Source: Thermosulfurimonas marina
GTDB taxonomy: Bacteria; Desulfobacterota; Thermodesulfobacteria; Thermodesulfobacteriales; Thermodesulfobacteriaceae
Assembly (NCBI RefSeq): GCF_012317585.1
Contig: NZ_CP042909.1
Span: 1,488,001 to 1,552,000 of the forward strand
Reading direction: 5' to 3'
Length of the DNA stretch: 64,000 nt
Position 1 is the first letter of the stretch, and the number at the start of each line of letters is the position of its first letter. This document shows positions 3,517-58,556 of this stretch, one piece after another. The notes beneath the pieces were generated by a model, which saw only the letters and a program-made list of their open reading frames with translations, had not been told where the DNA came from and ran no database searches. Both the position numbers and the translations under genes were made by a program.

Positions 3517-3520
3517 GGTC

Positions 3521-4330
3521 TCAGAAGGCCTCCTCTCCCTCAAAGGGTTTGCGCCGCATGATCCCCTGCCGGGAAGGATTCTCGAGAAACCGTACAAACT
3601 CTTCCACATGAGGATCCCCGGGGAAGGCATCCCGTAACTCTTCGATGACCTCGGAAATCCTTCCCGGACCATCGAGGAAGATCCCCAGGGCCTGGGAGAT
3701 GCGGCGGATGGCTTCCTTTTCAAAGCCTGCCCGACGCAGGCCCACCAGATTGACCCCCTGGATCTTGGCCGGAATGCCGAAGACCTTGACAAAGGGGGGC
3801 ACATCCTTGTCCACTCCGCTCATCCCGCTCACAAAGGCATAAGCCCCGATACGGCAGAACTGGTGCACGGCCGAAAGCCCTCCGAAGACCACCCGATCCC
3901 CCACCCGTACATGTCCTCCGAGGGTGGCCCCGTTGGCCATGATGATCTCGTTGCCAAGGAAACAGTCGTGGGCGATGTGGACGTAAGCCATGAGGAGACA
4001 GCGGTTTCCGATGCGGGTAAGCCCCTGGTCCAGGGCCGTCCCCCGGTGAATGGTCACGAACTCCCGGATCACATTTTCGTCCCCGATCTCCACCCAGGTT
4101 TTCTCCCCCTTGTAAGAGAGGTGCTGAGGATCAGCCCCGAGGATGGCGTGATGATTGACCAGGTTGTTCCGCCCGAGGCGCACGTTTTTTTCTATCACTA
4201 CATGAGCTCCGATGCGCGTTCCCCGGCCAATATAGACCTGAGGGCCAATTACGGCATAAGGCCCGATCTCCACTCCTTCTTCGATCTCCGCTGAGGGGTC
4301 CACGATGGCCGTGGGGTGGATCTTAGGCAT
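3521..4330 (-). CDS. lpxA: UDP-N-acetylglucosamine O-acyltransferase
   Basis: A 269-residue left-handed beta-helix acyltransferase, first enzyme of lipid A synthesis, which moves an acyl chain from acyl-ACP to the 3-OH of UDP-GlcNAc. Hexapeptide repeats fill the first two thirds (for example IEEGVEIGPYAVIG and IGRGTRIGAHVVI). The catalytic histidine is in VHIAHDCFLGN. A helical C-terminal domain follows. The ATG at 4330 ([12 protein letters not shown]) is the family start and overlaps the end of fabZ by eight bases. An upstream extension in the same frame has no family similarity. Acyl-chain preference cannot be read reliably from the sequence. Confidence 0.97.
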   Translation of the reverse strand: MPKIHPTAIVDPSAEIEEGVEIGPYAVIGPQVYIGRGTRIGAHVVIEKNVRLGRNNLVNHHAILGADPQHLSYKGEKTWVEIGDENVIREFVTIHRGTALDQGLTRIGNRCLLMAYVHIAHDCFLGNEIIMANGATLGGHVRVGDRVVFGGLSAVHQFCRIGAYAFVSGMSGVDKDVPPFVKVFGIPAKIQGVNLVGLRRAGFEKEAIRRISQALGIFLDGPGRISEVIEELRDAFPGDPHVEEFVRFLENPSRQGIMRRKPFEGEEAF

Positions 4331-4781
4331 GGGTTTCCTCCTCCCGGAGGATGGCCGCGGTGATTTCGGCCTCGGCCACCAGTTTCCCCTCCACACTGGC
4401 CCGAGCAGTGCTCTTGATGATGTGCCCTTTACGCCGGAATCCCTGAGCCTCAATTACTACCCGGTCCCCCGGACGTACCGGATGCCGGAAGCGGGCCTTG
4501 TCAATGGCCGCAAAGACAAAAAGGCTCTCCCGGCAGTCCTCCATGACCACCTTGATATAAAGGCCTCCGGTCTGGGCCATGGCCTCGATGAGAAGAACCC
4601 CGGGCATGAGGGGATTTCCTGGGAAATGGCCCTGGAAAAAGGGCTCATTGTGGGAGACATTCTTGATGGCCCGGATGTAGGCCCGTTCCGGATCGATCTC
4701 CTCCACCACATCCACCAGGAGAAAAGGATAGCGGTGGGGGAGGAGGGCCAAGATTTCCTGGGGTCCGAGGCTCCGTTTCAC
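4323..4781 (-). CDS. fabZ: 3-hydroxyacyl-ACP dehydratase FabZ
   Basis: A 152-residue single hot-dog-fold dehydratase of type II fatty acid synthesis, converting (3R)-hydroxyacyl-ACP to trans-2-enoyl-ACP in the cytoplasm. The diagnostic stretch is HRYPFLLVD near the N-terminus, then [23 protein letters not shown], which carries the catalytic histidine (GHFPG) and glutamate (EAMAQ). It lies in the classical lpxD-fabZ-lpxA order. FabZ and LpxA compete for the same hydroxyacyl-ACP, so the linkage balances phospholipid and lipid A synthesis. It starts at ATG 4781 and overlaps lpxA by eight bases. Confidence 0.97.
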
Positions 4782-4831
4782 CGTGGTCCTCCTTTCTCAA
4801 TATTTTGGGAAATTTCGGCCTTCGAGAGATC

Positions 4832-5878
4832 TTACTCGCGCTTTTGGTTTTCGGAAAGGAGCTTTTTGAGCCTTTGCCAATCTCTAAGCATCTCCGGAAG
4901 GCGGGCAAAGGCCACGGCGGCCTTGCGCCAGAGGCGGGCCGGAATGGCCGGAATACCGGCCACTTCTTCTCCCGGAGCTATGCGCCCGGAGATCCCGCTT
5001 TTGGCCGCAATACGGGCCCCGTCGCCTACTTCAGCCCCGGGGGCCACCCCCACCTGTCCTCCCATCATTACGAAACGCCCCAGCCGGGCATGCCCCCCTA
5101 GGCCGCACTGTGCCACAATAATGGAGCCTTCGCCGATCTCCACGTTGTGCCCGATCTGGACCAGGTTGTCGATCTTGGTCCCGGCCCCGATGCGGGTGGC
5201 CCCGAAGGTCCCCCGGTCCACACAGGTTGCGGCCCCGATCTCCACCTCTTCCCCGATCTCTACCGTACCGAAATGGGGGATCTTGAGGTGTCGTAGCCCT
5301 GCGGGGCCCATCTCCTGGGCATAGCCGAAGCCATCGGCCCCGATTACCGCCCCGGCGTGCACGAGGACCCGGTCGGCCAGTTTTACCCCGGGGTAAAGCA
5401 CTACATAGGGATAGAGTACACACTCCCGGCCTACTTGAGCTCCGGGCCCCACGAAGACCCCGGGGTAGAGGATGCTTCCGGCCCCGATCCGGGCCTTTCG
5501 GCCTACATAGACCCAGGGGCCTATAGAGACGTCCTTTTCGATCTCGGCCCCTTCCTCCACTACTGCCAAGGGACTTATCCCCGGGGCGGGGTGGGGGGGC
5601 CTCCAGAAGAGTTGGGCCACTTTGGCCAGGGCCGCCCGGGGATTTTCCGCAAGAAGGAGGCTTTTTTCTTTGGGGAGTTCCGGGGCCAGGGCCGGAGGAG
5701 CAAGGAGTGCTTTCGCCCGGGTTCGGCGGGCGGCCTCCAGATAAGCCCGGGACTCCACAAAGGAGAGCTCTTCTTCTCCGGCAAGCTCCAGGGAGGAGAC
5801 CCCGCGAATCTCTCGATCCTCTCCCCGAAATTCGGCTCCAATCCTCCGGGCAATCTCCGAAAGGAAATACTCAGGCAT
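4832..5878 (-). CDS. lpxD: UDP-3-O-acylglucosamine N-acyltransferase
   Basis: A 348-residue beta-helix acyltransferase that adds the N-linked acyl chain in the third step of lipid A synthesis. It has the N-terminal uridine-binding domain (residues 1-100), hexapeptide repeats (about 105-300) and a C-terminal helix. The catalytic histidine is in NLVQIGHNVEIGEG, and the ADGFGYAQ motif is conserved in LpxD. It is the first visible gene of the lipid A operon. Only the spacer 5879-6174, with two copies of a palindrome, separates it from divergent alaS, so its promoter should lie there. A 50-base gap separates it from fabZ. Confidence 0.97.
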   Translation of the reverse strand: MPEYFLSEIARRIGAEFRGEDREIRGVSSLELAGEEELSFVESRAYLEAARRTRAKALLAPPALAPELPKEKSLLLAENPRAALAKVAQLFWRPPHPAPGISPLAVVEEGAEIEKDVSIGPWVYVGRKARIGAGSILYPGVFVGPGAQVGRECVLYPYVVLYPGVKLADRVLVHAGAVIGADGFGYAQEMGPAGLRHLKIPHFGTVEIGEEVEIGAATCVDRGTFGATRIGAGTKIDNLVQIGHNVEIGEGSIIVAQCGLGGHARLGRFVMMGGQVGVAPGAEVGDGARIAAKSGISGRIAPGEEVAGIPAIPARLWRKAAVAFARLPEMLRDWQRLKKLLSENQKRE

Positions 5879-5926
5879 AGACCTATCTTAAAAACCCTCT
5901 CCCCAAAAGAAAACCCCCTTAAAAAT

Positions 5927-31769: not shown

Positions 31770-34072
31770 CGTACGCAGACGGCCCGGACCTGCTTGAGGT
31801 CCGTCTCTCCGGTAAGGACCTTAAGGATCCCGTCCTGTTTCAGGGTGAACATTCCGTTGCGCAGGGCCGCCTCCCGAATTTCGTGCACCGGGGCGGCCTT
31901 GACGATAAGTTCCCGCAGTTCGTCATTGGGGGTGAGGAGTTCGTGTATGGCCACCCGTCCTCGGTAACCGGTCTGGTTGCAACGGTGGCAACCTACCGGC
32001 CGATAGAGAGTGGCCTGACGGATGTCCTCTTCGGTTAAAGGCCGGAGGGGATGGTTCCCGTATTCGAAAATGAGCTCTTCAATCTCCTTTTCGGTAGGGG
32101 TAAAGGGCTCTTTGCAGTCCGGACAAAGACGCTTGGCCAGGCGTTGGGCCAGGATGCCCAGTAAGGCGTCAGCAAAGTTGTAAGGGTCAATACCCATACC
32201 CAGGAGTCGGGTTACGGTCTCCGGGGCGCTATTGGTGTGTAGGGTGGAAAAGACCAGGTGTCCGGTAAGGGAGGCTTCGATAAGGGCGTGGGCCGTCTCT
32301 TCGTCTCGGGTCTCTCCGATCATGATCACGTCCGGGTCGGCCCGCAGAAAGGCCCGTAAGACCCGGGCGAAGGTCAGGCCGATCTTGTGGTGGACCTGAA
32401 CCTGACGCAGGCCCTCCTGGACAATTTCCACCGGGTCTTCTGCGGTCCAGATCTTCTTGCTGGGCCGATTGATGTAATGCAGGGCCGCGTGCAGAGTAGT
32501 GGTTTTACCGGAGCCGGTAGGCCCTACGACCAGGATGAGCCCGTAGGGCATCTCCAGGATACGCCGAAACTGCTCCAGGACTTCAGGGCGCAGGCCGATC
32601 TCTTCCAGGGTTCGGGCCTGGACCCCGCCCAGGATACGCATGACTACATCCTCATTGTTTTCGATGGTGGGAATGGTGGCCACCCGGACCTCAAAGACCT
32701 TGCCGGTGCGGGTGCGAAACTTGATCTTTCCGTCTTGGGGGAGGCGCTTTTCCGCAATATCCAGACCGGCCATGATCTTGTAACGGGAGATCAAGGGGCG
32801 CTTCATGTGGTAGGGTACAGTCTGAAAGGGGATGCATTCCCCGTCGATACGGAAGCGGATCTGGGCCCCACGTTTTCCGGTGAGGCTCTCAATATGGATA
32901 TCCGAGGCCCCCCGGTTGTAGGCCTCCTCCAGCACATAGTTGGCAAACTGGACCACAACGCTTTCCTGGTCTTCGGGAAGCTCTTCCTCCTCTTCCACCG
33001 GTTCTTCTTCAGGAAGAATTTCTAGCTCCGGGGCCTCGAAGTATTCGAGCTTTCCGTAGTAGTAATCTAACAGCTTCAGGATATCTTCCCGGATAGCCAC
33101 CATAATCTCAAATTCTTTGACCTGGAGGATCTTTTTAGCCTGCTCTATGGCCCCTAGATCGAAGGGATTGGCCATTACCAGGGCCAGACGCCCGTCATCT
33201 TTGGCCAGGGGAGCCACGAGAAGTTGTCGCAGAAAACTTTCTTTTACACCCTCCAGACACTGGGGCTTTCCCAAAAGAAGGTCTTCTTTAAACTCCCAGA
33301 ACGGACAATTGTAGAAGCGCGAAAGGGCCTGACCGATGAGATCCTTGGAAATCCCGAATTTTTCGATAAGGACGCTTTCTACACTGCTTCCGGTCTCCCG
33401 GGCAATCTCCAGGGCTTCTTTACCGATGGAGGGGGTAAGGATCTTTTCCTTAAAAAGGAATTTGAGTTGGGCCGCTCCCTGGACCAGTTCCTGAAGGAAG
33501 GCGATCTTTTCTTCTGCCTGAACCTTTTCTTCTCCCAGGAGTTCTTCCTTCAATTTTTGATAGACCAGCAAGGCCTGCTCGAATTCATAGGCCTTTTCCA
33601 GCTCTTCAGCCAGTTTTTTCTGAAGTTCCACGAATTCCAGGCGATTTTCAGGGCTCAAGGGGAAGTGCCGTAGAGCCTGTTTTAGACAATTGGCCGCCTT
33701 TTCGTGTTGTCCCAAGGCCGCAAGACACTCTGCCAGATGCCGATAGACTTCCGGGTTAGGATTTTCCTGAGCCAGGTCCTCAAGGAGCCTTATGGCCTGT
33801 TGATAAAAGGCTCCTTCTTTGAGGATGAGGGCCTTTTTGAGTCTCTCTTCAAAGGAGTCTTGCGGGGTTTCTTCTTCCGAGACCACCCCCTTAAAGGCCT
33901 CCAGTTCGAAGATCCTTTTCTGAATCTCCTGTTTAAGGCCGTTTTCTTCCTCGGAGACCAGGTTACGCAGATCCCGATAGACTTCTAGGGCCTCGTCCAC
34001 CAGACCCTGCTTGGCGTAAAGTTCCGCCTCTTTGAGACGGTTCTCAATGTAACTACGCAGATCCTCGTTCAT
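31766..34072 (-). CDS. PilB/GspE-type secretion ATPase with N-terminal TPR extension
   Basis: A 768-residue hexameric ATPase of the type IV pilus or type II secretion kind. Residues 1-200 are TPR-like helical hairpins (EALEVYRDLRN and HEKAANCLKQALRHFP are clear units), not usual for PilB. A GspE N-terminal (MshEN) domain covers about 205-345. The catalytic domain has Walker A GPTGSGKTTT, the Asp box, GETRDEETA (Walker B region) and the CPDC...CHRC zinc site. Its ATG follows the coiled-coil gene stop with no gap. Linkage to mglBA suggests pilus extension at a chosen pole; a secretion ATPase is the alternative. Confidence 0.85.
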   Translation of the reverse strand: MNEDLRSYIENRLKEAELYAKQGLVDEALEVYRDLRNLVSEEENGLKQEIQKRIFELEAFKGVVSEEETPQDSFEERLKKALILKEGAFYQQAIRLLEDLAQENPNPEVYRHLAECLAALGQHEKAANCLKQALRHFPLSPENRLEFVELQKKLAEELEKAYEFEQALLVYQKLKEELLGEEKVQAEEKIAFLQELVQGAAQLKFLFKEKILTPSIGKEALEIARETGSSVESVLIEKFGISKDLIGQALSRFYNCPFWEFKEDLLLGKPQCLEGVKESFLRQLLVAPLAKDDGRLALVMANPFDLGAIEQAKKILQVKEFEIMVAIREDILKLLDYYYGKLEYFEAPELEILPEEEPVEEEEELPEDQESVVVQFANYVLEEAYNRGASDIHIESLTGKRGAQIRFRIDGECIPFQTVPYHMKRPLISRYKIMAGLDIAEKRLPQDGKIKFRTRTGKVFEVRVATIPTIENNEDVVMRILGGVQARTLEEIGLRPEVLEQFRRILEMPYGLILVVGPTGSGKTTTLHAALHYINRPSKKIWTAEDPVEIVQEGLRQVQVHHKIGLTFARVLRAFLRADPDVIMIGETRDEETAHALIEASLTGHLVFSTLHTNSAPETVTRLLGMGIDPYNFADALLGILAQRLAKRLCPDCKEPFTPTEKEIEELIFEYGNHPLRPLTEEDIRQATLYRPVGCHRCNQTGYRGRVAIHELLTPNDELRELIVKAAPVHEIREAALRNGMFTLKQDGILKVLTGETDLKQVRAVCVR

Positions 34073-35380
34073 TTATAGGCGCGTTACCGAAAAGATATAA
34101 ATCTCCGTCCCATTCATTAAGGCCCTTCCCAAAAAGGGCGGATTGGCCGGCAACCATTCTATGTTGGGATCTACTTGAATAATTTTATAATCGTTTGCCA
34201 GAAGAGCCAAGCCCTGGCCCTCCTTCCAGAGAAGGACCAGCTTGGTCTCGGTGGTGAGGAGTTTGTTGGTCTTGAAGGTAAGCCCCTCGAGTTCTTTTTC
34301 CGGCTTTTGGGCCAGTTCTCCTTGGAGCTTGGGACGGATCTTTCCGAACCAACGGCTGAAAAGCCCCCGCCCTTTAAGAAGTTTTAAAGGAAAAAGGCCT
34401 TCACTCAGGGATTTGCGCCAGTGATCCTGAATTTCCCCGTAAAAAGCCACCTCCTCAAGAGGAATGAGGAGTTCCCGAGAAAGGGTCCGGCACCAAAGGG
34501 CCCTTTCCAGGGCCGGGACCTTTTCTTTTTCCTGTTTCTCAAGAAAGGCCAAGATTTCCCTTTCCCGACGCTCTAGTTCTTCCTGATATTTCTCCCCTAG
34601 AATTTCCCGAATTTCTTTTTGGGCCTTGAGAAGGAGTTTGCGCGAGCCCTTAAGCGCTCCCTGTTTTAGGAGGGCCTCTATGGCTACCAGCCTTTCATAG
34701 GTGCGTAGAAGTTGCTGGAGAAGATGATCCTCCGGCATCTCTTTTCTTTTAGGGGGCGGAGCTGAAGGTCGAGGAGGTTCAGGGATGGGTTCGACCTCCG
34801 GACTAAGAGGGGGATGGTCTTCCACGTGAAGGACCTCTTGCGGAGTCTCCGAGATTTCTGGAAGCGGTTTTTCTTCGGTTTCCACTTCTAGTTCGAGTTT
34901 CAATTCTTCTTTTTCTTTTTCCAGGGTTTTTTCCAATTCTTTGAGCTCATGAAGGACTTTTTCTTGGGCCAGGCCTTCAAAGTTGTACTGATAAAGAAGG
35001 CTTCCGGTCTTCTTGAGGAGATCCAGATGAAGAGCCTCTATCTTTTCCGGAGAGCGGATTTCTTCCAGGATTTTTTCCAGAAATTCTAGGAGCTTTTGGT
35101 TGGTACGATCCAGTTCAGCCGCACGCAGTTTTTGACACTTTTGGTAGGCCTTTTCCGTAATCTCCGGAATGATTTCCCATTCGATGGTGAGGATTTCTCC
35201 TATCAGCTCTTCGAATTCTTTTTTGAGGGCCTCCTCTCCTTCTACTATGGGTTCCAAGAGGGAATAACCTTCAATTTCTTCCTCTTTTAGCTCGGTCTTT
35301 TTGGCGGCGCTAAAAATGCTCTCTAGGGCCTTTTCCACCTCTTGTTCCAGTTCTTCAGTTATTTTGTCTTTTTCGGCCAT
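34073..35380 (-). CDS. Glu-rich coiled-coil protein linked to MglA
   Basis: I do not recognise this 435-residue protein. Residues 1-175 are strongly acidic helix and coiled coil. About 176-235 is a Pro-rich acidic linker (PLSPEVEPIPEPPRPSAPPP). Residues 236-330 are another charged helix. The C-terminal 90 residues are strand-rich (TKLVLLWKEGQGLALLANDY, then GTEIYIFSVTRL) and faintly recall a CheW-type fold, which is a weak impression. It has no signal peptide or membrane helix. It sits between mglA and the PilB-like gene with almost no spacing, so a cytoplasmic adaptor or MglA effector is a reasonable guess. Confidence 0.7.
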   Translation of the reverse strand: MAEKDKITEELEQEVEKALESIFSAAKKTELKEEEIEGYSLLEPIVEGEEALKKEFEELIGEILTIEWEIIPEITEKAYQKCQKLRAAELDRTNQKLLEFLEKILEEIRSPEKIEALHLDLLKKTGSLLYQYNFEGLAQEKVLHELKELEKTLEKEKEELKLELEVETEEKPLPEISETPQEVLHVEDHPPLSPEVEPIPEPPRPSAPPPKRKEMPEDHLLQQLLRTYERLVAIEALLKQGALKGSRKLLLKAQKEIREILGEKYQEELERREREILAFLEKQEKEKVPALERALWCRTLSRELLIPLEEVAFYGEIQDHWRKSLSEGLFPLKLLKGRGLFSRWFGKIRPKLQGELAQKPEKELEGLTFKTNKLLTTETKLVLLWKEGQGLALLANDYKIIQVDPNIEWLPANPPFLGRALMNGTEIYIFSVTRL

Positions 35381-35383
35381 AGA

Positions 35384-35998
35384 TTACCCCTGTTTGAGGT
35401 ATTTTTCGGCGATGTACCTTACACTCATTTTACTGATGGTTTTTAGGGTCTCAAAAACCCCTACCCCTTTGGGAGCTATAGCCTCGAAGTAAGGGGCCTG
35501 AAGCTCGGCGTTAAGGTCTGCTTGAAGCTCGTCAATAGAAAGGATAGGGATACCCATCTCTCCCAGATCCCGTTTGTTATATTGAAAGACCAGCGGAATC
35601 TCGTGAATATCCATATTCCATTCCATAAGGTGTTCCTTGAGGTCTTGGAGGCTTTCTTTGTTTTTTTCCCGTCGGATACGGAGACTATCAGCCACAAAAA
35701 CTACACCATCGGCTCCCTTGAGGACCACCTTGCGGGCCGGCTTATAGATGGCCTGGCCGGGCACGGTGTAAAGTTGGAGGCGAATATCTAGGTCTTTGAT
35801 TTTCCCGAGGCTTAGAGGCAAAAGATCAAAGAAAAGCGTTCTTTCTCCCTTGGTCTCAATGGTCAGGAGCTTACCTTTGAACTTGTCGGGCAGGGCATTA
35901 TAAATGTAGAGAAGGTTGGTGGTCTTCCCGGACCTTCCCGGACCATAGTAGACGATCTTACAGTAAATTTCTCGCTTTTTGAGGTCTATAAGGGCCAT
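35384..35998 (-). CDS. mglA: Small Ras-like GTPase MglA
   Basis: A 204-residue GTPase that sets cell polarity and pilus or gliding switching. The P-loop GPGRSGKTTN is at residues 19-28. TVPGQ ends with the glutamine at position 82, NKRD is at 141-144, and an arginine at 53 (KGERTLFF) fits the intrinsic arginine finger described for Myxococcus MglA. The usual DxxG motif is replaced by VPGQ, as in the MglA family. The ATG follows the mglB stop directly, and the coiled-coil gene starts three bases after the mglA stop. Confidence 0.95.
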   Translation of the reverse strand: MALIDLKKREIYCKIVYYGPGRSGKTTNLLYIYNALPDKFKGKLLTIETKGERTLFFDLLPLSLGKIKDLDIRLQLYTVPGQAIYKPARKVVLKGADGVVFVADSLRIRREKNKESLQDLKEHLMEWNMDIHEIPLVFQYNKRDLGEMGIPILSIDELQADLNAELQAPYFEAIAPKGVGVFETLKTISKMSVRYIAEKYLKQG

Positions 35999-36382
35999 TT
36001 AGACCTTCTCCAGCTCCTTGGCCAACTGGCTTACCTTAAGCCTCACCAAGCCCAGGGGGACCTCGTCGGTAAAGACCGTCACCAGGATAAGGTCCTCCCG
36101 GATCTTACTTAGATGGATATTGTCTTTCTTCCCCTTGTGGTAAAGGATGGAGAAGTCCTCCTCTCCTAAGATTTTGGCAATCTGGTTGGTGGCCCCAAAG
36201 TTGGCCGCGGCCAGGGCCGCCAAGGCCGTGGTATCCACCTCTCGGCTACTTCCCTGAGAGACCAGAATGTTTCCTGCCTCATCGATGAGGAGGGCCAGAC
36301 TTACCCCTGCGGAAATAAGATAATCTTCCAAAAGTTTTTCTAGGCGGGTTACCTTTTCGGGCGTTAAAATTAGAGCGCCCAT
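35999..36382 (-). CDS. mglB: Roadblock/LC7 protein MglB (MglA GTPase-activating partner)
   Basis: A 127-residue roadblock/LC7 protein. The fold is visible as TRLEKLLEDYLISAGVSLALLIDEAGNIL, then ALAALAAANFGATNQIAKIL and the final strand ILVTVFTDEVPLGLVRLK. MglB dimers stimulate MglA GTP hydrolysis and mark the lagging pole. ATG 36382 has AAGGAGG upstream. The next gene is mglA with no gap, the standard mglBA order. Its promoter lies in the short spacer shared with the divergent receiver gene. Confidence 0.92.
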   Translation of the reverse strand: MGALILTPEKVTRLEKLLEDYLISAGVSLALLIDEAGNILVSQGSSREVDTTALAALAAANFGATNQIAKILGEEDFSILYHKGKKDNIHLSKIREDLILVTVFTDEVPLGLVRLKVSQLAKELEKV

Positions 36383-36399
36383 CTTTAAGCCTCCTTAGT

Positions 36400-36428
36400 T
36401 TGACAAGGACTAGGATAATATGCATAAT
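36400..36428 (+). promoter_or_regulatory. Promoter of the receiver-cheA operon, overlapping the mglBA promoter
   Basis: TTGACA (36400-36405) and CATAAT (36423-36428) are 17 bases apart, an almost ideal sigma-70 promoter facing the receiver genes. In the same spacer the minus strand offers TTGATT (36441-36436) with TATTAT or TATCCT about 14 or 18 bases on, facing mglBA. The two promoters occupy the same DNA, so pilus polarity and chemosensory genes may be expressed in competition or under joint control. Confidence 0.65.
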
Positions 36429-36456
36429 GGGAAAAAATCAAGATTCAAAATGGAAG

Positions 36457-37521
36457 ATGAAAAAGGTTTTGATCATAGATGATTCTCCTCTTATCTGTCG
36501 GATCCTTGAAAAGGCCATTATTTCCTTCCCGGATTTTCTTCCGGTTGGCAAAGCGGCCAACGGGGTGGAGGCCCTGAACCTTATAGAAAAGCTGGAGCCA
36601 GACCTTTGTACTTTGGACGTGAATATGCCGGCCATGGACGGTCTTAGTTTGCTCAAGAAGCTCATGGTAAGGAGGCCCATGCCGGTCCTGATGGTAAGTG
36701 CCCTTACCAAGGAGGGTTCCAAAACCGCCTTCGAGGCTTTGCGTTACGGAGCTTTAGACTTTCTAACCAAGCCGGGAGGGCTTTGGGAAGCCGGAGGAAC
36801 CTTTGAAAAGGTGCTCCAGGACAAGCTCCGTCGGGTCTCGGCGGTGGATCTATCGGCCATTCGTTTTATCACCCGGAAAAGCCTTAAGAAGAGGCCCCTG
36901 GCCGAGGCTCGTCCCGCTCGAAGTTTAATCGTCGGGCTGGGCAAAGAGGGGATGTACACCCTTCTTCTGCGTCTTTTGAGTTTTGTGGAGGAGGTCCGGG
37001 CCCCTCAGGTGTGGTATCTGGATCTCCCTGAGGCTCTGGTGGAGGCCTTTGCCGAATACCTGGCTGCCGAGTGTGCCCTTCCGGTCAAGGCCTTGGTTTC
37101 TGGAGAGGTTCTTCGGGAAGGGTTTCTTTATCTTACAAGCACCGATAAATGGTTGAAATTGGAAGAAGATCATGAGGGGCGCTTGATAGTCAAAAAGAGT
37201 GAAAGGCCTCGGAATGTTTCGGGAGAAGAGGCTCTGGATGCTTTTATTCTGGAGGCGGTTACCCTTCTGGGCCCCAGAGTAATGGTTATTGTGGGTTCCG
37301 GGCGCTTGGAGAAGGGGAAACTAGGGGTAGCGGAGGTGCAGGCTGCGGGAGGGAAAGTGATCGTCCTCCATCGAAAGATATGTCTTTACCCGGAAGGACC
37401 TATCTTTTTTGCGGAGGGTGGAAGATATCCCGAGGTCTCTCTGGAGACCGCGGGTCAGCTCCTTTCTAAGTGGCCGGAGAGGGGGGAAAGGGATGTCTCA
37501 GCACTTAAAGGGCAGGCTTGA
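36457..37521 (+). CDS. Response regulator with degenerate CheB-like C-terminus
   Basis: A 354-residue protein. Residues 1-120 form a receiver with D8/D9, phospho-acceptor D54 (CTLDVNMPAMDG), S81 and K105 (FLTKPGG). Residues 145-350 follow the CheB methylesterase layout (VIVGSGRLEKG, AEVQAAGGKVIVLHR). However, the catalytic serine motif GASTGG is replaced by GLGKEG, the QHMP histidine site by LDLP, and the GMGNDG aspartate by GRLEKG. Methylesterase activity is therefore unlikely. A start at ATG 36457 follows from the promoter position; ATG 36427 is within the -10. It overlaps the next gene by 29 bases. Confidence 0.8.
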   Translation: MKKVLIIDDSPLICRILEKAIISFPDFLPVGKAANGVEALNLIEKLEPDLCTLDVNMPAMDGLSLLKKLMVRRPMPVLMVSALTKEGSKTAFEALRYGALDFLTKPGGLWEAGGTFEKVLQDKLRRVSAVDLSAIRFITRKSLKKRPLAEARPARSLIVGLGKEGMYTLLLRLLSFVEEVRAPQVWYLDLPEALVEAFAEYLAAECALPVKALVSGEVLREGFLYLTSTDKWLKLEEDHEGRLIVKKSERPRNVSGEEALDAFILEAVTLLGPRVMVIVGSGRLEKGKLGVAEVQAAGGKVIVLHRKICLYPEGPIFFAEGGRYPEVSLETAGQLLSKWPERGERDVSALKGQA

Positions 37522-51261: not shown

Positions 51262-51882
51262 TTATCTTTGGTCTGGGAAGTACTTTTTAAGCAAGGGATT
51301 TTGGGGAGCCAAGATAGATAAATCTCTAAAGGCCCTTCGAGCCTCTTCTTTTTTCCCCAAGTAGTAGAGATTTAGGGCCAATTCGGCCAGGAAATTTATA
51401 TCGGTAGGATAAAGAGCCAACATCTTCCGGCACACAGCCTCCGCTTGGGCATACTTCCCCTGTTGCCTTAAGGCGAAGCTTAAGCGTAAACGGCCATAAT
51501 AATTGAAGGGGTCGATTTTGAGGACCCGATACATGAGTTTTTCCACTTGAGACCAATCTCTTTGGGCTAAATAAGGCAAACTCAATCCTAAAAGAGGCTC
51601 TACAGCCTCCGGTTGGGCCGAAAGGGCTCTTTCGTAATGTTTGATGGCTTCGCGATAGCGCCCGGCCCGATAAAAAAGCCAGCCCAGCCTCAAATTTACC
51701 GTATAATCCTGGGGATAAGCTCGAAATACGACTTGTAAGGCCCGGATGGCCTCGCTGAACCTTCCTTCTCTTTCATATCGGTAGGAGTCGTAATAGGCCT
51801 GACGGACCGTTTCATAAGAAAGACCCCAGGTCGTGCCGCTAAAAACTATCCCCAGCCAGAGGAAAAGGGTGATTTTTCGCAT
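51262..51882 (-). CDS. TPR-repeat exported protein, last gene of the PqqD/ATP-grasp operon
   Basis: A 206-residue protein with a signal peptide (RKITLFLWLGIVFSGTTWG, about residues 2-20) and roughly four TPR units: YEREGRFSEAIRALQVVFRA, RAGRYREAIKHYERAL, RQQGKYAQAEAVCRKML and YLGKKEEARRAFRDL. It is probably periplasmic; there is no lipobox cysteine. One base separates it from the beta-barrel gene. As the last gene of the six-gene operon it may scaffold the outer-membrane or peptidoglycan side of the system. Confidence 0.8.
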   Translation of the reverse strand: MRKITLFLWLGIVFSGTTWGLSYETVRQAYYDSYRYEREGRFSEAIRALQVVFRAYPQDYTVNLRLGWLFYRAGRYREAIKHYERALSAQPEAVEPLLGLSLPYLAQRDWSQVEKLMYRVLKIDPFNYYGRLRLSFALRQQGKYAQAEAVCRKMLALYPTDINFLAELALNLYYLGKKEEARRAFRDLSILAPQNPLLKKYFPDQR

Positions 51883-51883
51883 C

Positions 51884-52753
51884 TCAGAAGTTGAACCCCA
51901 CAGAGGCGGTAACCACTGTCTGATTTACGTTCTTTCCCGTAGAAATTTCTTCATAGGTGTTCCAGTGCGTCTGTAATCCGAGCAGGTACTTATTTTCCCA
52001 ACGATAGGTGAGCTCGGCTCCCGCTCCCCCCCGATATTTTTCGGTGAGATTATAGACCACGAATCCCCCGGTTTTTACGGCGAACACCTGCTGCCCCGCC
52101 CATCCCAAGATCTTAAAACTCACAGGCCCTCGGGTCCAGGTGGCCGAAAGTTCAAGGGAATAGTAATTCTTTAAAGAGAGGCCTATGCTTTTGCTTTCAT
52201 CCACATGAATGTAATAGGCCCGGGTTTCTAGGTATAGACTGTCCGCTCCCAGGCGGCGGAAGTAGCCCGCATGAGGGGAAAATTGAAAGACCTCTAGATT
52301 TACCCATTGATCATAATTGGAGTAGTCCACTTCTAGCCCTATATTCCAGCGATAAGGTACAAAATAGGTGAGGTCTCCCAGAAGAATCCAGCCCTCGTCG
52401 GTAAGTTTATCGTCGCTAGAGATATAGTGGCCTCCCAGACGTAAGGAAAGATTAGGATGAAGCCCCGCAGTATAGGTATAGACCAAGGTGTAATCTGTTT
52501 GATCCAAGTCGGAATATGGAGACTCGTAATTGAGATGTAATTGAGAAAGGGCCGCCTCTAGCCCTTGCTTTTTCCCGTCTCCTATACTGCCATAAACCGT
52601 TATTGCATAACCGTCTTCCTTAATAGCCGAGTTGCCATAATTGAGATAAGTGCCGTAAAGAGCTAAATATTTCTTCAGGCCCTCCGCCTGGACCTCTGCA
52701 GTAAAAAGACAGAAAAGCCCTACTATTATCCAGAATTTAAACCCCCTTTTCAT
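51884..52753 (-). CDS. Outer-membrane beta-barrel protein
   Basis: A 289-residue protein with a cleavable signal peptide (residues 1-23, ending AEVQA) and a mature chain of alternating aromatic/hydrophobic strands, for example TLVYTYTAGLHPNLSLRLGG and NKYLLGLQTHWNTYEE. It ends in ...SVGFNF, with the C-terminal phenylalanine recognised by the BAM complex. Strand pattern suggests roughly a dozen or more strands. No plug or TonB box is visible. It overlaps the transporter-peptidase gene by 17 bases. It may provide an outer-membrane exit or entry route for the operon's product. Confidence 0.78.
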   Translation of the reverse strand: MKRGFKFWIIVGLFCLFTAEVQAEGLKKYLALYGTYLNYGNSAIKEDGYAITVYGSIGDGKKQGLEAALSQLHLNYESPYSDLDQTDYTLVYTYTAGLHPNLSLRLGGHYISSDDKLTDEGWILLGDLTYFVPYRWNIGLEVDYSNYDQWVNLEVFQFSPHAGYFRRLGADSLYLETRAYYIHVDESKSIGLSLKNYYSLELSATWTRGPVSFKILGWAGQQVFAVKTGGFVVYNLTEKYRGGAGAELTYRWENKYLLGLQTHWNTYEEISTGKNVNQTVVTASVGFNF

Positions 52754-54824
52754 AGCCTAACCTCCTTATACAAAGATAACCTTGGGAAAGGCGCATTTCT
52801 ATCTTTTCAAACCCCCGATCCTCAGCCAATCGCACCCGAGTATAAATTGTTTTTTCATTACACCGGAGATGTCCTTCGAAGTCAAGACGAGAAAGGGCTT
52901 GGTAACGAAGAATGGGGCGCCATCTTTGGGGCCACAGGGAAAGCAGAAAAAGTTCTAAATTTTTGCGCCAGGCGGGGAAGAAGATCTCCAGAGGAAGACG
53001 GTCCTCCCAGGAAAGCCCCGGGCGCAACCCCAGAGGGATTTTGGGGGCGGCCATTAAAAAATAGTAGAGGGGGGATTTTCGAGAGCCTTCAAAATTCAGG
53101 AAATAGAAGGCCCCGGTTTTCAGGGCGAAGTAAAGCCTGGCCCGTCCATCTGTAAGGTAGAAAGTGCCGTCCGGGGCCATTTCTACCCGAATTTCCACTT
53201 CATCTAGCCGTTGGTTGTCTCCCAGAAGCTCATAGATCAGCTTTTCTCCCAAAAGAAAATTCATGGTGTGTCGGATACGCTTGTCCGGAGGGAGGCCCTC
53301 CAGGGTTTCTCCCTCCTTCGGAAGAGAAAAGTCCCGAAACTTCCCGTCCGAAAGATAAGCGCGGAAGACGAAGGGTAGGCTCTGGGCCCCTATTTCCGGT
53401 TGTAGCTGGACATGAAGATGCAGGTGGGGCTCGGGGGCGTAGCCCGAACTTCCGCAAAGCCCCAAAAGAGCCCCTTTAACTACCCAGTCTCCTTCTTTTA
53501 CGCGGAAGGTTCCGGGGCTGAAGTGGGCCAACACCACATAAAAACCTCGAGGATCATAAAGTATCAGGTGATTGCCCCAGGGCTGATCGGTGTTGGCCGA
53601 TCCCGGAGGCTCATCTGGAAGGCCATCCACCAGGGTTATCACCCGTCCCGTAATCGGGGAGAATATGGGCTTACGATAGGCATAATAATCTTCTAGGACC
53701 ATCCCCTCCCCTCGATAGGTGCGACCCCTTTCATCGGTGATAGCCAGATCCAAGGCCTGGCGCCAGGGGCCCTTGTGGGTAAACTGCCCCTCCGGACCTT
53801 GCCAAACCGTCCACCGGCCACTTACCGGAAGTTCGAGATCCCAAACTCCTGTGGGGAATCTTTTTCCCAGACTGAGGTGATAGTCCAAGGTCTTTTCCGG
53901 AGTTCCGCGGTAATAGGAGACCAGATCCCGGGATCCAGAAAGCCTCAAGGTATAAAGAAAAAGAACGGTGGTGAGGTTAAAAGGCAGGGCAAAGGCCGGC
54001 AGACCGAACTTTCTCCAGAAGACCTGTGAGGCGGCCGTAAGGGGAAAAGCTACCGCCGAGCCCAGGAGGGCCAGAAGATAGCTTCGGCGAGAGGGCAAAA
54101 GAAAGACTCCCCCGAGGGCCAGGGCCACCAGAATAAAATTAAAATGACCAGGGTCTGCAAAGGCCTGAGAGGCTGATCCGGTAAAGAAAATGGCCAACGC
54201 CGTACCGGAAAAATACCCTAAAAAGGCCAACAGGGAGAGGATGGGAGAAAAGGAAAGAAGCATGAGGAAGAGGGCCAAACCTATCAAAGGATAGGGCAAA
54301 AAGAAAATGGCTCCTAGGGCCCGAAAAAATCCCATAAGGGGGGGCGGAAAGGCTGGAGCAGGCAGAGAGATCCGAGGATAAAGACCTTCTACGAAGAGCC
54401 CGGAATACTGATAAGCCGCCAAGGCAGCCAGAAGACTTCCCAGGACAAAAGGTAAGCTGAGGATGGGCAGTCGCAAATAATAAGAAAAGAGGCTGTAGAG
54501 GGTGTAAGTGAGCACAAAGGTGAAAATACCCATTAAGACGAGAAAAACAAGACTAAGCAAACATAATTTGAAATAATATCCGATAGAAAGTCCTACCAAG
54601 AGAGGATTGTAAATATAGAAATCCAATCGCAGAAATTCTTCTTTTAGACCCAGTATTCGGGCAAAGCCGTAAGCGGCCAGCGCGCACGCCAGGGCTGAAA
54701 ACCCTAGATTGGGATAGATTAAAGTAAGGAGAAGGATTAACAGTCCGGCTCCGGGATGAGAGAGAAAGAGGACCCCGGCATAGCTGTTGAGGATCGATCG
54801 GGGAATGTGACGGAAGTCTCTCAT
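52737..54824 (-). CDS. Urea-transporter-like membrane domain fused to M23 peptidase
   Basis: A 695-residue fusion. Residues 10-300 resemble the urea transporter (UT) family, with about ten helices and the NPLLVGLSIG signature at 73-82. Residues 320-490 form an M23/LytM peptidase domain with a full zinc set: H350 and D359 (HxnD), H434 and HLHLH at 467-471. An unrecognised strand-rich C-terminal domain (500-695) follows. M23 enzymes cut peptidoglycan cross-links or other glycine-containing peptides. Coupling to a small-amide channel suggests transport with an extracytoplasmic peptidase step. It overlaps both neighbours. Confidence 0.8.
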   Translation of the reverse strand: MRDFRHIPRSILNSYAGVLFLSHPGAGLLILLLTLIYPNLGFSALACALAAYGFARILGLKEEFLRLDFYIYNPLLVGLSIGYYFKLCLLSLVFLVLMGIFTFVLTYTLYSLFSYYLRLPILSLPFVLGSLLAALAAYQYSGLFVEGLYPRISLPAPAFPPPLMGFFRALGAIFFLPYPLIGLALFLMLLSFSPILSLLAFLGYFSGTALAIFFTGSASQAFADPGHFNFILVALALGGVFLLPSRRSYLLALLGSAVAFPLTAASQVFWRKFGLPAFALPFNLTTVLFLYTLRLSGSRDLVSYYRGTPEKTLDYHLSLGKRFPTGVWDLELPVSGRWTVWQGPEGQFTHKGPWRQALDLAITDERGRTYRGEGMVLEDYYAYRKPIFSPITGRVITLVDGLPDEPPGSANTDQPWGNHLILYDPRGFYVVLAHFSPGTFRVKEGDWVVKGALLGLCGSSGYAPEPHLHLHVQLQPEIGAQSLPFVFRAYLSDGKFRDFSLPKEGETLEGLPPDKRIRHTMNFLLGEKLIYELLGDNQRLDEVEIRVEMAPDGTFYLTDGRARLYFALKTGAFYFLNFEGSRKSPLYYFLMAAPKIPLGLRPGLSWEDRLPLEIFFPAWRKNLELFLLSLWPQRWRPILRYQALSRLDFEGHLRCNEKTIYTRVRLAEDRGFEKIEMRLSQGYLCIRRLGYEKGV

Positions 54825-56164
54825 CGGAGATGTTCAGGGAGGTTTTCTAGACGCACAATGTCTTCCAGGGTTTCGGCTTTCCGGATAATTTCTGGATGCC
54901 CTTCTTCGGTGATAAGGACTACCGGGGGACGGTAGGTAATAAACTGCATCCATTGGGTTATGTTGTAAGCGCCCACCGGAGAAATCACTAGAGGGGTTTC
55001 CCGGGGTAGAGGGGGAAGGAGGATTGATTCCTCTACCACATCGATATTCATGCAGAGGGGGCCGTAAAGCACGCAGGGTTCCGGCGGCCCCAGAATTTCG
55101 TCCCCTAGCTCTACTTTGAGGCTGTACCAGAAGGCCGTAAAAAGGAGATTTACCCCGGCATCCAGTACGTAGGCCCGCTGACCGGTGGGCAGACGCTTTA
55201 TAGCCCGCACGGTGGTCAAGAGGAACCCGGCTTCATCTACCAGGGCCCGACCGGACTCTAAAATAAGCAGGGGGTACTCGCCCGGTTGGAGACGGGAAAG
55301 AAGGACCCGCCCTATGCGTTCAGCATAGTCTGCCAAAGGGGGGACGGCCACCTCTGGAGGAAGATAGACTCCCTTTAGGCGATTGCGGGAAGGGAAGCCC
55401 CCACCCAGGTCGAGATATTCTATGTTCCAGCCAAATTTTTCTTCCAGTTGCCGGGCCAAGGTCAAAAGCTTTTCCGTAGCCCTAGCGTAAGCCTCCGGCT
55501 CGAGGATAAAGGTCCCTTGGTGGCAGTGGAGCCCCACCACTTCTAGTTTCCCTCCCGCAGCAATTCTTTGGGCCACCTGCAGGACCTCTCCACTTTCTAG
55601 ATTGAAGCCGAACCGATCCCAGCGAGGATAAATTCCCGTATCCATATTGATCCGCAGGCCTATGGAGAGTTTACGCCCCTGTTCCGAGGCGATTTCTTCC
55701 AGGTCCAGGATCTCGTCTAGAGAATCCGCATTAATGCGGGCGCCTTCTTCTACCGCCCGGCGCAGGATGTTTTTGGGCTTGTAAGGGCCGTTGAAAATGA
55801 TCTTCTCTCCCGGTACTCCCAGGCGTCGAGCCTTTTCGTATTCAAAATCCGAGACCACTTCCGCCGTGGCCCCTTCCTGATGAAAGATGCGGCAGATGGC
55901 ATCCAGATAGTTGGTTTTGTAAGACCAGCTGAATTCCACCCGAGGATACTGGCTTTCAAAGATCCGGCGGGCATAGCGTATTTGTTCTCGCAGTCTTTTT
56001 TCGGAAAAGACAAAAAGAGGCGAACCATAGCGGCGCAGGAGGTCCTTTACCGGAACTCCGTCTATTTCCTTGCGCACCAAACTGGAGAGGGTGCTGCTCT
56101 TGTCGCGTAAAAACCCGACCTGGAGCTTGGTGATGGCGGGTTTTTGGTAGGCTTTTTTCTTCAT
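54821..56164 (-). CDS. Fold-III PLP-dependent decarboxylase (LysA/ODC superfamily)
   Basis: A 447-residue protein of the diaminopimelate/ornithine decarboxylase superfamily. The PLP lysine is in FSWSYKTNYLDA (residue about 83). GLHCHQGT, LDLGGGFPS and ESGRALVDEAG are the usual PLP-phosphate and substrate blocks, and GPLCMNIDVVEES carries the active-site cysteine across the dimer interface. Substrate determinants differ from LysA and no lysA neighbours are present. With an ATP-grasp and PqqD gene beside it, it may decarboxylate an unusual amino acid or a carrier-linked product. It overlaps both neighbours by four bases. Confidence 0.85.
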   Translation of the reverse strand: MKKKAYQKPAITKLQVGFLRDKSSTLSSLVRKEIDGVPVKDLLRRYGSPLFVFSEKRLREQIRYARRIFESQYPRVEFSWSYKTNYLDAICRIFHQEGATAEVVSDFEYEKARRLGVPGEKIIFNGPYKPKNILRRAVEEGARINADSLDEILDLEEIASEQGRKLSIGLRINMDTGIYPRWDRFGFNLESGEVLQVAQRIAAGGKLEVVGLHCHQGTFILEPEAYARATEKLLTLARQLEEKFGWNIEYLDLGGGFPSRNRLKGVYLPPEVAVPPLADYAERIGRVLLSRLQPGEYPLLILESGRALVDEAGFLLTTVRAIKRLPTGQRAYVLDAGVNLLFTAFWYSLKVELGDEILGPPEPCVLYGPLCMNIDVVEESILLPPLPRETPLVISPVGAYNITQWMQFITYRPPVVLITEEGHPEIIRKAETLEDIVRLENLPEHLR

Positions 56165-57189
56165 CTTTCTCCTCGGGTCACCATGTACTGAAAGACCTCA
56201 AGGTCGGTGACCAAATCGTCGGTGAAACGGATGTAGAGTTTGCCAGCAGGATAGTTCCAGTCTCTCTCGGGCTCTTCCCCTAGGGCTGCGGCCAGGAGTC
56301 TTTCTGGAAGATTGACCCCTACTCCTACGGCAAAGTATATCCAGGCCGGGAACCGAGGGTTGATTTCAATGAGATAAAGTTCGTCTTCGTGGGAGATAAC
56401 CTCCAATTCAAAAGCCCCTCGCCACCGATATTTCTGAACAAAGGTCTCCGCGGCCTCTAGCAGCCGGGGAAGGGTAATGGTTACTCCGGTCCAGATTTTT
56501 CCCAGGGCCGTAATCCAGAGCTTTTTGATGGCCAGGAGTCCGAAATGTCCCCCTTCTCCATCACCCAACCCTACTACATTTACCTCTTCTCCCTCCACTA
56601 CTTCCTGAACGATCACCGGATAACCCCATTCGGCGGCGATGGTCTGAAAGTGGTGGAAGGCTTCTGCCTCAGTGTAGGCCCGCAGAGCCTTGTAAAATAG
56701 ACCTTTGATCATTACCGGGAATCGGAGCTGAGTGAGGGCCCGCAGGAGTTCTTCCTGCGAAGAGACGGCGAAACTTACCGGACTCTTGAGACCGATGTTT
56801 TCGGCTACCACCGGCAGGCGGTCCTTGGCCCTTAGACGGAATTGTTCTCTGGTGGGCAAAAAGCTGGCTAGGCCATAAGCCGAAAGCTTTGCCTGAAGAT
56901 CGATAAAAAGGGGAAGCTCGGCATCTAAGGACGGAATCACGACCTCTAGTCCTTCTTTTTCCTTGATATAAAGCAGGCGATTCAAAAAAGGGGCCTCCCC
57001 CTCAGAGGGATAAGGCATTAGGTAGGCCCGGTCTACCAAGTGAGGGAGATAGATCCCGGGTTCCATGGCATCGTAGGCCAGGCCTACTACGGAAACCGGC
57101 CTTGGCCCCTCTTTAAGGCCCTTAATGATCCCCAGCCCCGGTCCGGGATTGTCTACCGCGTTGATCCCCGAGACGGCCACCTTAACCAT
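56161..57189 (-). CDS. ATP-grasp ligase
   Basis: A 342-residue ATP-grasp protein. The pre-ATP-grasp domain (1-120) starts VAVSGINAVDNPGPG. The nucleotide-binding part has PVMIKGLFYKALRAYTEAEA and VIVQEVVEGEEVNVVGLGDG. The metal-binding loop is LIEINPRFPAWIYFAVGVGVNLP (about residues 272-294). This fold forms amide or peptide bonds through an acyl-phosphate; it is closest in general style to carbamoyl-phosphate synthase or carboxylase-like ATP-grasp enzymes. No specific substrate can be named. Its start overlaps the pqqD-like gene by eight bases. Confidence 0.85.
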   Translation of the reverse strand: MVKVAVSGINAVDNPGPGLGIIKGLKEGPRPVSVVGLAYDAMEPGIYLPHLVDRAYLMPYPSEGEAPFLNRLLYIKEKEGLEVVIPSLDAELPLFIDLQAKLSAYGLASFLPTREQFRLRAKDRLPVVAENIGLKSPVSFAVSSQEELLRALTQLRFPVMIKGLFYKALRAYTEAEAFHHFQTIAAEWGYPVIVQEVVEGEEVNVVGLGDGEGGHFGLLAIKKLWITALGKIWTGVTITLPRLLEAAETFVQKYRWRGAFELEVISHEDELYLIEINPRFPAWIYFAVGVGVNLPERLLAAALGEEPERDWNYPAGKLYIRFTDDLVTDLEVFQYMVTRGER

Positions 57190-57433
57190 CGGTTTTCCCT
57201 TCCCAAAGATGGTATCGCCTCAATATCTCCAAAAACTCCTCTATATCTCTGAGCGCAGCTCCCGGGGAAATTTCATATTTTTCACTGAGGGCTTGGGCAA
57301 TCTCCGGTGGACTTTTCCCCTCCCGTAAGGCCTTGAGGACCAGAAGTCCGGTTTCGTTCACGGTGTAAGCGTTTCCAGTCTCAGGGTCAAAGACGAATCC
57401 CTCGTCGCTTATGGCCAGTCGAGAAAGCTTCAT
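57182..57433 (-). CDS. PqqD-family (RiPP-recognition-like) protein
   Basis: An 83-residue PqqD-like protein. The fold signature is SDEGFVFDPETGNAYTVNETGLLVLKALREG, ending in a helix and RRYHLWEG. PqqD domains bind leader peptides in RiPP systems (the RRE domain), but this architecture also occurs alone in other polysaccharide or amino-acid ligation clusters. It is the first gene of the operon. The start at ATG 57433 is chosen from the family N-terminus; no clear Shine-Dalgarno sequence stands before it. No precursor peptide gene is visible next to it. Confidence 0.82.
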   Translation of the reverse strand: MKLSRLAISDEGFVFDPETGNAYTVNETGLLVLKALREGKSPPEIAQALSEKYEISPGAALRDIEEFLEILRRYHLWEGKTDG

Positions 57434-57521: not shown

Positions 57522-58556
57522 ATGATTCTGGCCACCGGACAGGACCGTTGCTATGACACCCGGGGTCGAGAGATCCCTTGCCAGGGAACCGGCCAGGATG
57601 GGCAGTGGCGTTTCGGGCTTTCGGGTTTTCCCCGGTTTAAGGTCCAGGGGGAGTTGGTGGAAGATCTCCTTACCGGGCTTTTCTGGCCCAAGAATGCCGC
57701 GCTTTTTGAATTCCCCATGTCTTGGGAAGAGGCTTTGCGGGCGGTGGCCAGGCTCAATCGCGAAAATTTTCTGGGTTTTTCTGACTGGCGACTTCCCAAT
57801 CGGCGGGAGCTGCGCAGTTTAGTCTTTTATCAGGCCAAAAATCCGGTTCTTCCCCCGGGGCACCCCTTTGAAAACCTCTTTCATGGCTGGTATTGGACCT
57901 CCACCACGGCCGTCATCAACCCCCGTTATGCCTGGAATGTACATTTCGGGGGAGGACGCATGTTTTACAGTCACAAAGAGGACGAAAGAATGGTTTGGCC
58001 GGTGCGCGGAAGGTTCCGTCTTCCCGCCACCGGACAGCACACCTGCTACAACACTTTGGGGAACCCTGTGTCCTGCTCTGGGACCGGACAGGACGGTGAG
58101 ATCCGTTCCGGGCTGCCCTGGCCAGAGCCCCGATTTGAACTCCGTGCTGAAGCGGTCTTTGACCGTTTGACCGGTCTTTTCTGGACCCGTTTGGCGGATC
58201 TCGCCCCGGGGAGGGTCACCTGGGAAGAGGCCTTTCAGGTGGTGGTGGAGCTTAACCGACGCAAGTTTTCCGGATTTTCCGACTGGCGCCTTCCCAACAT
58301 CAACGAATTGGAAAGCCTGGTGGATGCGCAGTATCACTCTCCGGCCCTGCCCAGGGATCATCCCTTCCAGGAGGTGCGAGAATATTACTGGTCCTCCACC
58401 ACCAGCTTTTACGATCCCCTCTGGGCCTGGGCCCTTTATCTGGCCAAGGGGGCGGTGGGGATAGGACTCAAACACGGCCCCCACTTTTATGTCTGGGCCG
58501 TGCGGGGAAGACCCTGGCGCCCCCGGGAGGACTCGAACCCCCAACCTGCGGATTAG
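57522..58556 (+). CDS. DUF1566 (Lcl-domain) protein with two tandem repeats, running into tRNA-Arg
   Basis: A 344-residue protein of two DUF1566 units, each starting with an ATGQxxCY motif (about residues 4 and 168) and containing FSDWRLPN (R/I)xxEL and a VWxVRG end. The fold is lectin-like; function is unknown. AAGGAG lies seven bases before ATG 57522. No signal peptide is visible. Its own stop is missing: after VWAVRG the frame continues into the antisense of the tRNA gene (58515-58591) and stops in its anticodon region, adding about 14 residues (RPREDSNPQPAD type). The upstream gene pair is divergent. Confidence 0.82.
   Translation: MILATGQDRCYDTRGREIPCQGTGQDGQWRFGLSGFPRFKVQGELVEDLLTGLFWPKNAALFEFPMSWEEALRAVARLNRENFLGFSDWRLPNRRELRSLVFYQAKNPVLPPGHPFENLFHGWYWTSTTAVINPRYAWNVHFGGGRMFYSHKEDERMVWPVRGRFRLPATGQHTCYNTLGNPVSCSGTGQDGEIRSGLPWPEPRFELRAEAVFDRLTGLFWTRLADLAPGRVTWEEAFQVVVELNRRKFSGFSDWRLPNINELESLVDAQYHSPALPRDHPFQEVREYYWSSTTSFYDPLWAWALYLAKGAVGIGLKHGPHFYVWAVRGRPWRPREDSNPQPAD

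Follow-up and report, generated by a model that had tools for sequence, protein, structure and literature searches.

We propose that six overlapping genes of Thermosulfurimonas marina form an operon of two modules, one biosynthetic and one for the envelope, in which a PqqD-type RiPP recognition element (RRE) would dock a tagged decarboxylase to an ATP-grasp ligase. We give this reading a probability of roughly 0.45. The broader idea, that RiPP recognition operates here without a precursor and that the RRE binds a leader borne by an enzyme, stands at about even odds; such binding could provide a dock for the ligase and decarboxylase, or an amino acid could be loaded on the tag. What sets the operon apart is that an enzyme bears the leader-like tag. 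PqqD-type RREs serve as beacons for ribosomal peptide pathways; should it prove possible for an RRE to serve an enzyme-borne leader motif, many precursor-less "orphan" RREs may act as docking modules in small-molecule pathways.

Layout and composition of the operon

The window, i.e., the whole stretch of 64,000 nucleotides that was analyzed, covers 1,488,001–1,552,000 of a 1.76-Mb genome. Six minus-strand genes at 51262–57433 of the window are joined by overlaps of 8, 4, 4, and 17 bases and then a 1-base gap. The features are as follows.

57182..57433, minus strand: pqqD, a discrete PqqD-type RRE of 83 aa (PF05402, E 2e-15)
56161..57189, minus strand: ATP-grasp ligase of 342 aa, carbamoyl-phosphate-synthase-like (PRK12767 type; Pfam E 9e-9), 8-base overlap with pqqD
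54821..56164, minus strand: fold III (alanine-racemase-fold, AR-fold) PLP decarboxylase of 447 aa (Orn/DAP/Arg decarboxylase, E 2e-33), 4-base overlap
56114..56149, minus strand: leader-like tag YQKPAITKLQVG, decarboxylase residues 6–17, a conserved motif
52737..54824, minus strand: UT-M23 fusion of a urea-transporter-fold channel, an M23 domain, and a C-terminal domain (UT E 1e-57, M23 E 1e-8), 4-base overlap
51884..52753, minus strand: predicted 14-stranded outer-membrane beta-barrel (AF2), 17-base overlap with UT-M23
51262..51882, minus strand: TPR protein with an N-terminal hydrophobic segment (several TPR Pfam families), 1-base gap after the barrel

The longest ORF of pqqD starts at 57535; however, the Pfam match and the relatives favor the ATG at 57433. 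The first-pass annotation had treated the six genes as one unit, and the junctions, the ORFs, and the conserved order all agree with a unit that looks co-transcribed. The run is not a product of chance, as its order recurs in other genomes. The earlier domain calls of PqqD, ATP-grasp, decarboxylase, urea channel with M23, and TPR were confirmed by the Pfam E values above. PADLOC models matched 0/6 proteins, and a defense system was rejected on this basis.

The operon is A+T-richer than its surroundings, an earlier impression by eye that the numbers bear out: its GC content was 51.6% compared with 57.7% for the window (the minimum over all 6.2-kb stretches was 51.2%), and GC3 was 0.51–0.59 in the operon genes compared with 0.66–0.73 in the neighbors. 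A further low-GC stretch (about 49%) lies at 33001–37000 of the window and is possibly a second acquired region. A divergent gene with Lcl_C domains (57522–58556) adjoins the operon and was absent beside the other clusters inspected.

A leader-like tag at the decarboxylase N-terminus

Every decarboxylase with an intact 5' end begins with a few residues followed by Y-[E/Q]-K-P-x-[I/L], except the one on a phage-type contig, and all of these except that of genome G019 carry a Gly at the same later position. The tag was kept in the very divergent G019 cluster. Y6, K8, P9, and G17 were invariant in 17/17 aligned decarboxylases, and K13 was nearly so. Mean column identity was about 0.65–0.72 at residues 1–15 compared with 0.40–0.48 at residues 21–30, the linker after the tag being the least conserved part of the N-terminal region. 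The cluster loci, with some loci of one genome counted twice, contain 363 non-overlapping ORFs of 100 codons or more. Y-x-K-P-x-[I/L] occurred within the first 25 residues of 21 of these, all of them decarboxylases (21/21), and a looser motif added only 6 further ORFs. At locus L044, the ORF caller chose start codons that lie downstream of the motif, which is in frame with them. The LysA of the same genome has neither the tag nor such an N-terminal extension.

The tag, within the first 17 residues of the decarboxylase, fits [Y/W]xxPx[L/V/I/F/A], the motif bound by discrete lasso-peptide RREs; as judged from this fit, a precursor-type recognition signal sits at the N-terminus of the enzyme. The likeness to lasso leaders is confined to YxxPx[LI], and none of the lasso family models scored on the tag was significant. 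The spacing of the conserved Gly also differs from that of lasso leaders. PF19397 (DUF5972) matched the tag weakly (E 0.02), and it was given no weight because a genome-wide search with it gave chance-level scores. The phage decarboxylase is without the tag while its RRE is kept, indicating that some systems can do without the tag; this absence is the chief argument against the tag being indispensable.

The first-pass annotation had seen no precursor gene and suggested looking nearby for short ORFs with conserved leaders. Near the clusters, no conserved short ORF carrying the motif was found, and across 395 genomes, a search with degenerate codons for Y[EQ]KPxIxK returned only decarboxylases, chance ORFs, and proteins resembling ribosomal protein bS21. 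Hence, the earlier statement holds for a separate gene, whereas a precursor-type motif is present on the decarboxylase itself. These searches also count against an ordinary RiPP pathway, in which the precursor peptide would be encoded elsewhere in the genome and the tag would be a docking copy of its leader. RREs normally serve a peptide precursor, and the phage RRE, lacking a tagged decarboxylase, presumably has another partner; nevertheless, we consider this explanation unlikely.

The tag might instead be the substrate. The ligase would load an amino acid on the decarboxylase N-terminus (e.g., on K8), the same protein would decarboxylate it, and the product would be released. In lasso YxxP, the two middle positions are free, yet in the tag K8 never varies and K13 hardly does; moreover, the ligase and decarboxylase always occur together with the RRE. 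However, each product would cost an enzyme molecule or oblige it to be reset, no dedicated release enzyme is evident on the cytoplasmic side, and the phage enzyme has no tag; we regard self-loading as rather improbable.

The RRE as a putative reader of the tag

The nearest solved structures to the operon PqqD were the lasso RREs TbiB1 (9e-7) and TfuB1 (1e-6). Discrete lasso RREs bind the motif given above, and in LppB, N33 fixes the Pro, D70 fixes the Tyr, and F74 lines the pockets (PMC13381572). By a gapless offset of 7, the LppB-to-PqqD mapping assigned in this analysis, these residues correspond to N26, D63, and F67 of the operon RRE, which were conserved in 18/19, 19/19, and 19/19 sequences, respectively; the position of LppB Y60 was Y or F in all 19. 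The operon RRE scored 48.2 bits against a cut-off of 70 for NF033530. In a structure-based RRE survey (PMC12710340), YxxP is listed as the recognition sequence of lasso pathways; the word decarboxylase is absent from that paper. The contact residues and the motif, both read from sequence, suggest that PqqD docks the decarboxylase via its tag.

TbiB1, TfuB1/FusB1, and LppB (linear polyphosphorylated peptides) share with the operon a discrete PqqD-type RRE, YxxPx[L/I], and the N/D/F contact positions. However, the motif lies on the precursor peptide in lasso systems and on an enzyme in the operon. Family scans of the six genes found neither the lasso asparagine-synthetase-like cyclase nor the transglutaminase-like leader peptidase (B2). 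No short lasso precursor gene with a leader motif was found in or near the clusters or by a strict motif search of 395 genomes. Similarly, the operon does not resemble a graspetide cluster; its ATP-grasp is PRK12767/CarB-like, and no core peptide gene lies near the clusters.

Ligase and decarboxylase chemistry

The decarboxylase best matched N-citrylornithine decarboxylase (7kh2, E 4e-52), LysA (1e-42), and BtrK (3e-26). It scored 216.2 bits against the LysA equivalog TIGR01048 and 199.3 bits against the N-citrylornithine decarboxylase (FslC) model NF041039, below the respective cut-offs of 297.9 and 500. It carries GPLCM where the LysA of the same genome carries GPICE (LysA pattern GPxCE), and this second LysA-like gene ruled out that the decarboxylase is the organism's only LysA. 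PMC7857480 and PMC8503589 place FigC, SbnH, AcsE, MccE, and BtrK in one group, comprising AR-fold decarboxylases that are not part of polyamine synthesis and whose substrates are conjugated amino acids. The ATP-grasp is CarB-like, with conserved N-terminal GxNAxDxPGPG and C-terminal EINPRFPAW. Since the ligase is CarB-like and the decarboxylase is nearest to conjugate decarboxylases, conjugation followed by decarboxylation would be the most economical pathway.

Two known systems combine a ligase with an AR-fold decarboxylase in this manner. FigA/FigC (FslA/FslC) also decarboxylates a conjugated amino acid and shares the GPxCM and GAYN motifs; however, its ligase is an NIS synthetase, whereas the operon has an ATP-grasp, an RRE, and other transport genes. 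In butirosin side-chain synthesis, BtrJ, an ATP-grasp ligase, and BtrK act on an amino acid bound to the acyl carrier protein BtrI; the operon contains an RRE instead of an acyl carrier protein. The nearness of the decarboxylase to FigC raises the possibility of a product like a polycarboxylate siderophore, with the ATP-grasp replacing the NIS synthetase and the barrel and channel handling traffic. We consider this very unlikely, as the operon contains neither a TonB-dependent receptor nor an MFS exporter, the barrel resembles the open channels CymA and OmpG, and RREs have no known role in such pathways.

Under the docking reading, the ATP-grasp would spend ATP in the cytoplasm to couple an amino-acid side chain to a partner carboxylate or amine, and the decarboxylase, which like FigC, BtrK, and MccE is of a kind that takes conjugated substrates, would strip the alpha-carboxylate from the conjugate to yield an amine. 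The PqqD-like RRE would serve as the organizer, gripping the Y-x-K-P-x-[I/L] tag as lasso RREs grip leader peptides, and tag docking would keep the decarboxylase close to the ligase or to an RRE-associated substrate. The envelope module, i.e., the UT-fold protein with its M23 site, the barrel, and the TPR protein, may let the small product exit or act in the envelope. In this reading, the conserved gene order, the tag, the RRE relationship with its contact residues, the enzyme families, and the fold predictions are observations, whereas RRE–tag binding, the reaction sequence, the substrate, and export are inferred.

The first-pass annotation had suggested an amide or peptide product exported across two membranes, and cytoplasmic ligase and decarboxylase genes beside inner- and outer-membrane parts agree with this, although export would still be a matter of inference. 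It had also found no known pathway that fits, in agreement with our search of the open-access literature, where no described pathway with this gene combination was found. Within the literature searched, the operon looks like an undescribed pathway for producing and handling a small amine or amide.

Two separable modules

The divergent cluster of G019 (L121, 1413–4769) consists of TPR, PqqD, two tandem ligases, and decarboxylase genes, at which point the contig stops; G019 is absent from the list of UT-M23-positive genomes. Its PqqD is longer, with an N-terminal extension containing Cys/His. A 65.7-kb IMG/VR contig (IMGVR_UViG_3300047160_011268; L125/L126) bears phage-type DNA polymerase, exonuclease, and DNA methyltransferase genes, as well as overlapping RRE, ligase, and decarboxylase genes at 3444–5922. 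Identity to the operon was 34% for the ligase and about 45% for the decarboxylase, and no UT-M23 lies beside the trio. A ligase search of 50,697 phage records gave no match. Conversely, two Aquificales MAG contigs (L035 and L036) carry a lone UT-M23 beside a phosphoribosyltransferase-like gene, with the RRE, ligase, and decarboxylase absent. The operon is therefore composed of two separable modules: the occurrence of RRE, ligase, and decarboxylase without UT-M23 in G019 and the phage-type contig suggests that the minimal unit consists of these three, and the lone UT-M23 in Aquificales indicates that the channel is a separable part.

This separation also bears on a role in modifying peptidoglycan or the envelope, in which the decarboxylase would act on a diaminopimelate-containing peptide and M23 would cut cross-links. 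A LysA-like fold and an M23 domain with invariant metal ligands in one operon would suit such a role. However, the first module occurs without UT-M23 in G019 and the phage-type contig, UT-M23 occurs alone in Aquificales, a methionine (GPLCM) stands where LysA has glutamate, as in FigC, and the genome owns a separate LysA; this role appears quite unlikely.

Envelope components

The UT-M23 fusion comprises a UT fold (about residues 10–292), an M23 domain (about 338–475), and a beta-rich C-terminal domain without a family match. Its AlphaFold2 model (pLDDT 88, pTM 0.81) matches LytM/M23 enzymes as well as the Desulfovibrio vulgaris urea channel dvUT (3me1), the latter with a TM-score of 0.82 by target length. 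The M23 zinc ligands are complete (H350, D359, H434, and H467xH469) and were invariant in 20/20 sequences. The UT domain scored 195.8 bits for PF03253, above the cut-off of 25 for the Pfam UT fold, and 84.4 bits for the urea transporter model TIGR03441 (yut), below its cut-off of 274.6. Compared with dvUT, with which it shares the predicted fold, the operon channel adds the M23 and C-terminal beta domains, and its pore segments are altered (cgQvmF to yaGvlF, gEvmF to gAifF, and LTWPF to FALPF). Urea-binding residues of dvUT lie in these segments. As the aligned residues differ in the operon channel, the solute need not be urea.

The side of the membrane on which the M23 domain lies is pointed to in both directions. 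In the UT fold, both ends are on one side, as established for UT-B. With loop sides assigned in this analysis from the DSSP string, K+R averages were 15 on the termini side and 4 on the other, or 5.4 and 4.1 when the termini were excluded; together with the fold, these counts would point the M23 domain to the cytoplasm. In contrast, stand-alone M23 relatives carry a signal peptide, a lipoprotein signal, or a membrane helix at the N-terminus, and the export of these relatives would indicate the periplasm. The earlier placement of M23 outside the inner membrane thus agrees with the relatives and not with the K/R counts, and the cytoplasmic side that the counts suggest would fit poorly with an envelope role for the M23 domain.

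The barrel matched nothing in Pfam or NCBIfam; nevertheless, the earlier barrel call agrees with the AF2 prediction of 14 strands (pLDDT 85, pTM 0.78), and CymA and OmpG were among the best nearest folds. Its N-terminal helix is consistent with a signal peptide. The TPR protein is probably periplasmic.

Distribution and history

UT-M23 was searched in 297 genomes of the phylum (Desulfobacterota), and a true fusion or the contig-cut start of one was found in 12 genomes besides its own. The ligase was present in 16/395 genomes searched and accompanied full-length or contig-cut UT-M23 in 12/12 of the other genomes. Distribution outside the phylum rests on one scan of GTDB-representative contigs. 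Of the 11 loci it yielded, nine hold the operon or what remains of it, and the other two are the Aquificales contigs. The search of other genomes for the gene order, as proposed earlier, showed that it recurs in several families of the phylum, with UT-M23 identity down to about 31%. Many thermophilic bacteria and bacteria related to them keep the six genes together. At loci other than those with a lone UT-M23, the kept order is pqqD, ligase, decarboxylase, and UT-M23, usually followed by barrel and TPR genes. The latter two are more variable than the first four: the TPR gene is upstream in L044, as is the barrel in L047, and L044–L046 have no recognized barrel. The contig at L031 belongs to Thermosulfurimonas dismutans S95, making the operon directly testable as a new pathway in a named strain.

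Same-family relatives were often without the operon in both the UT-M23 and ligase searches. The IlvB of the window was 94% identical to that of G364 and 87% identical to that of G155, whereas the decarboxylase was 79% and 80% identical, respectively. These identities, together with the low GC and GC3, favor horizontal transfer or frequent loss, without amounting to proof. The earlier hint of transfer therefore agrees with the composition and the patchy distribution, but frequent loss would also fit. Plasmid relatives were only LysA-type decarboxylases of about 30% identity.

Two loci show irregularities. In G074, a near-identical second cluster start (L122, G074:C9) lies at a contig end in addition to L043 (G074:C14), representing a duplication or an assembly variant. 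In the single-contig genome G269, a frame break and a TAA interrupt the ATP-grasp gene (L041, 12460–13498), and the pathway may be decaying there.
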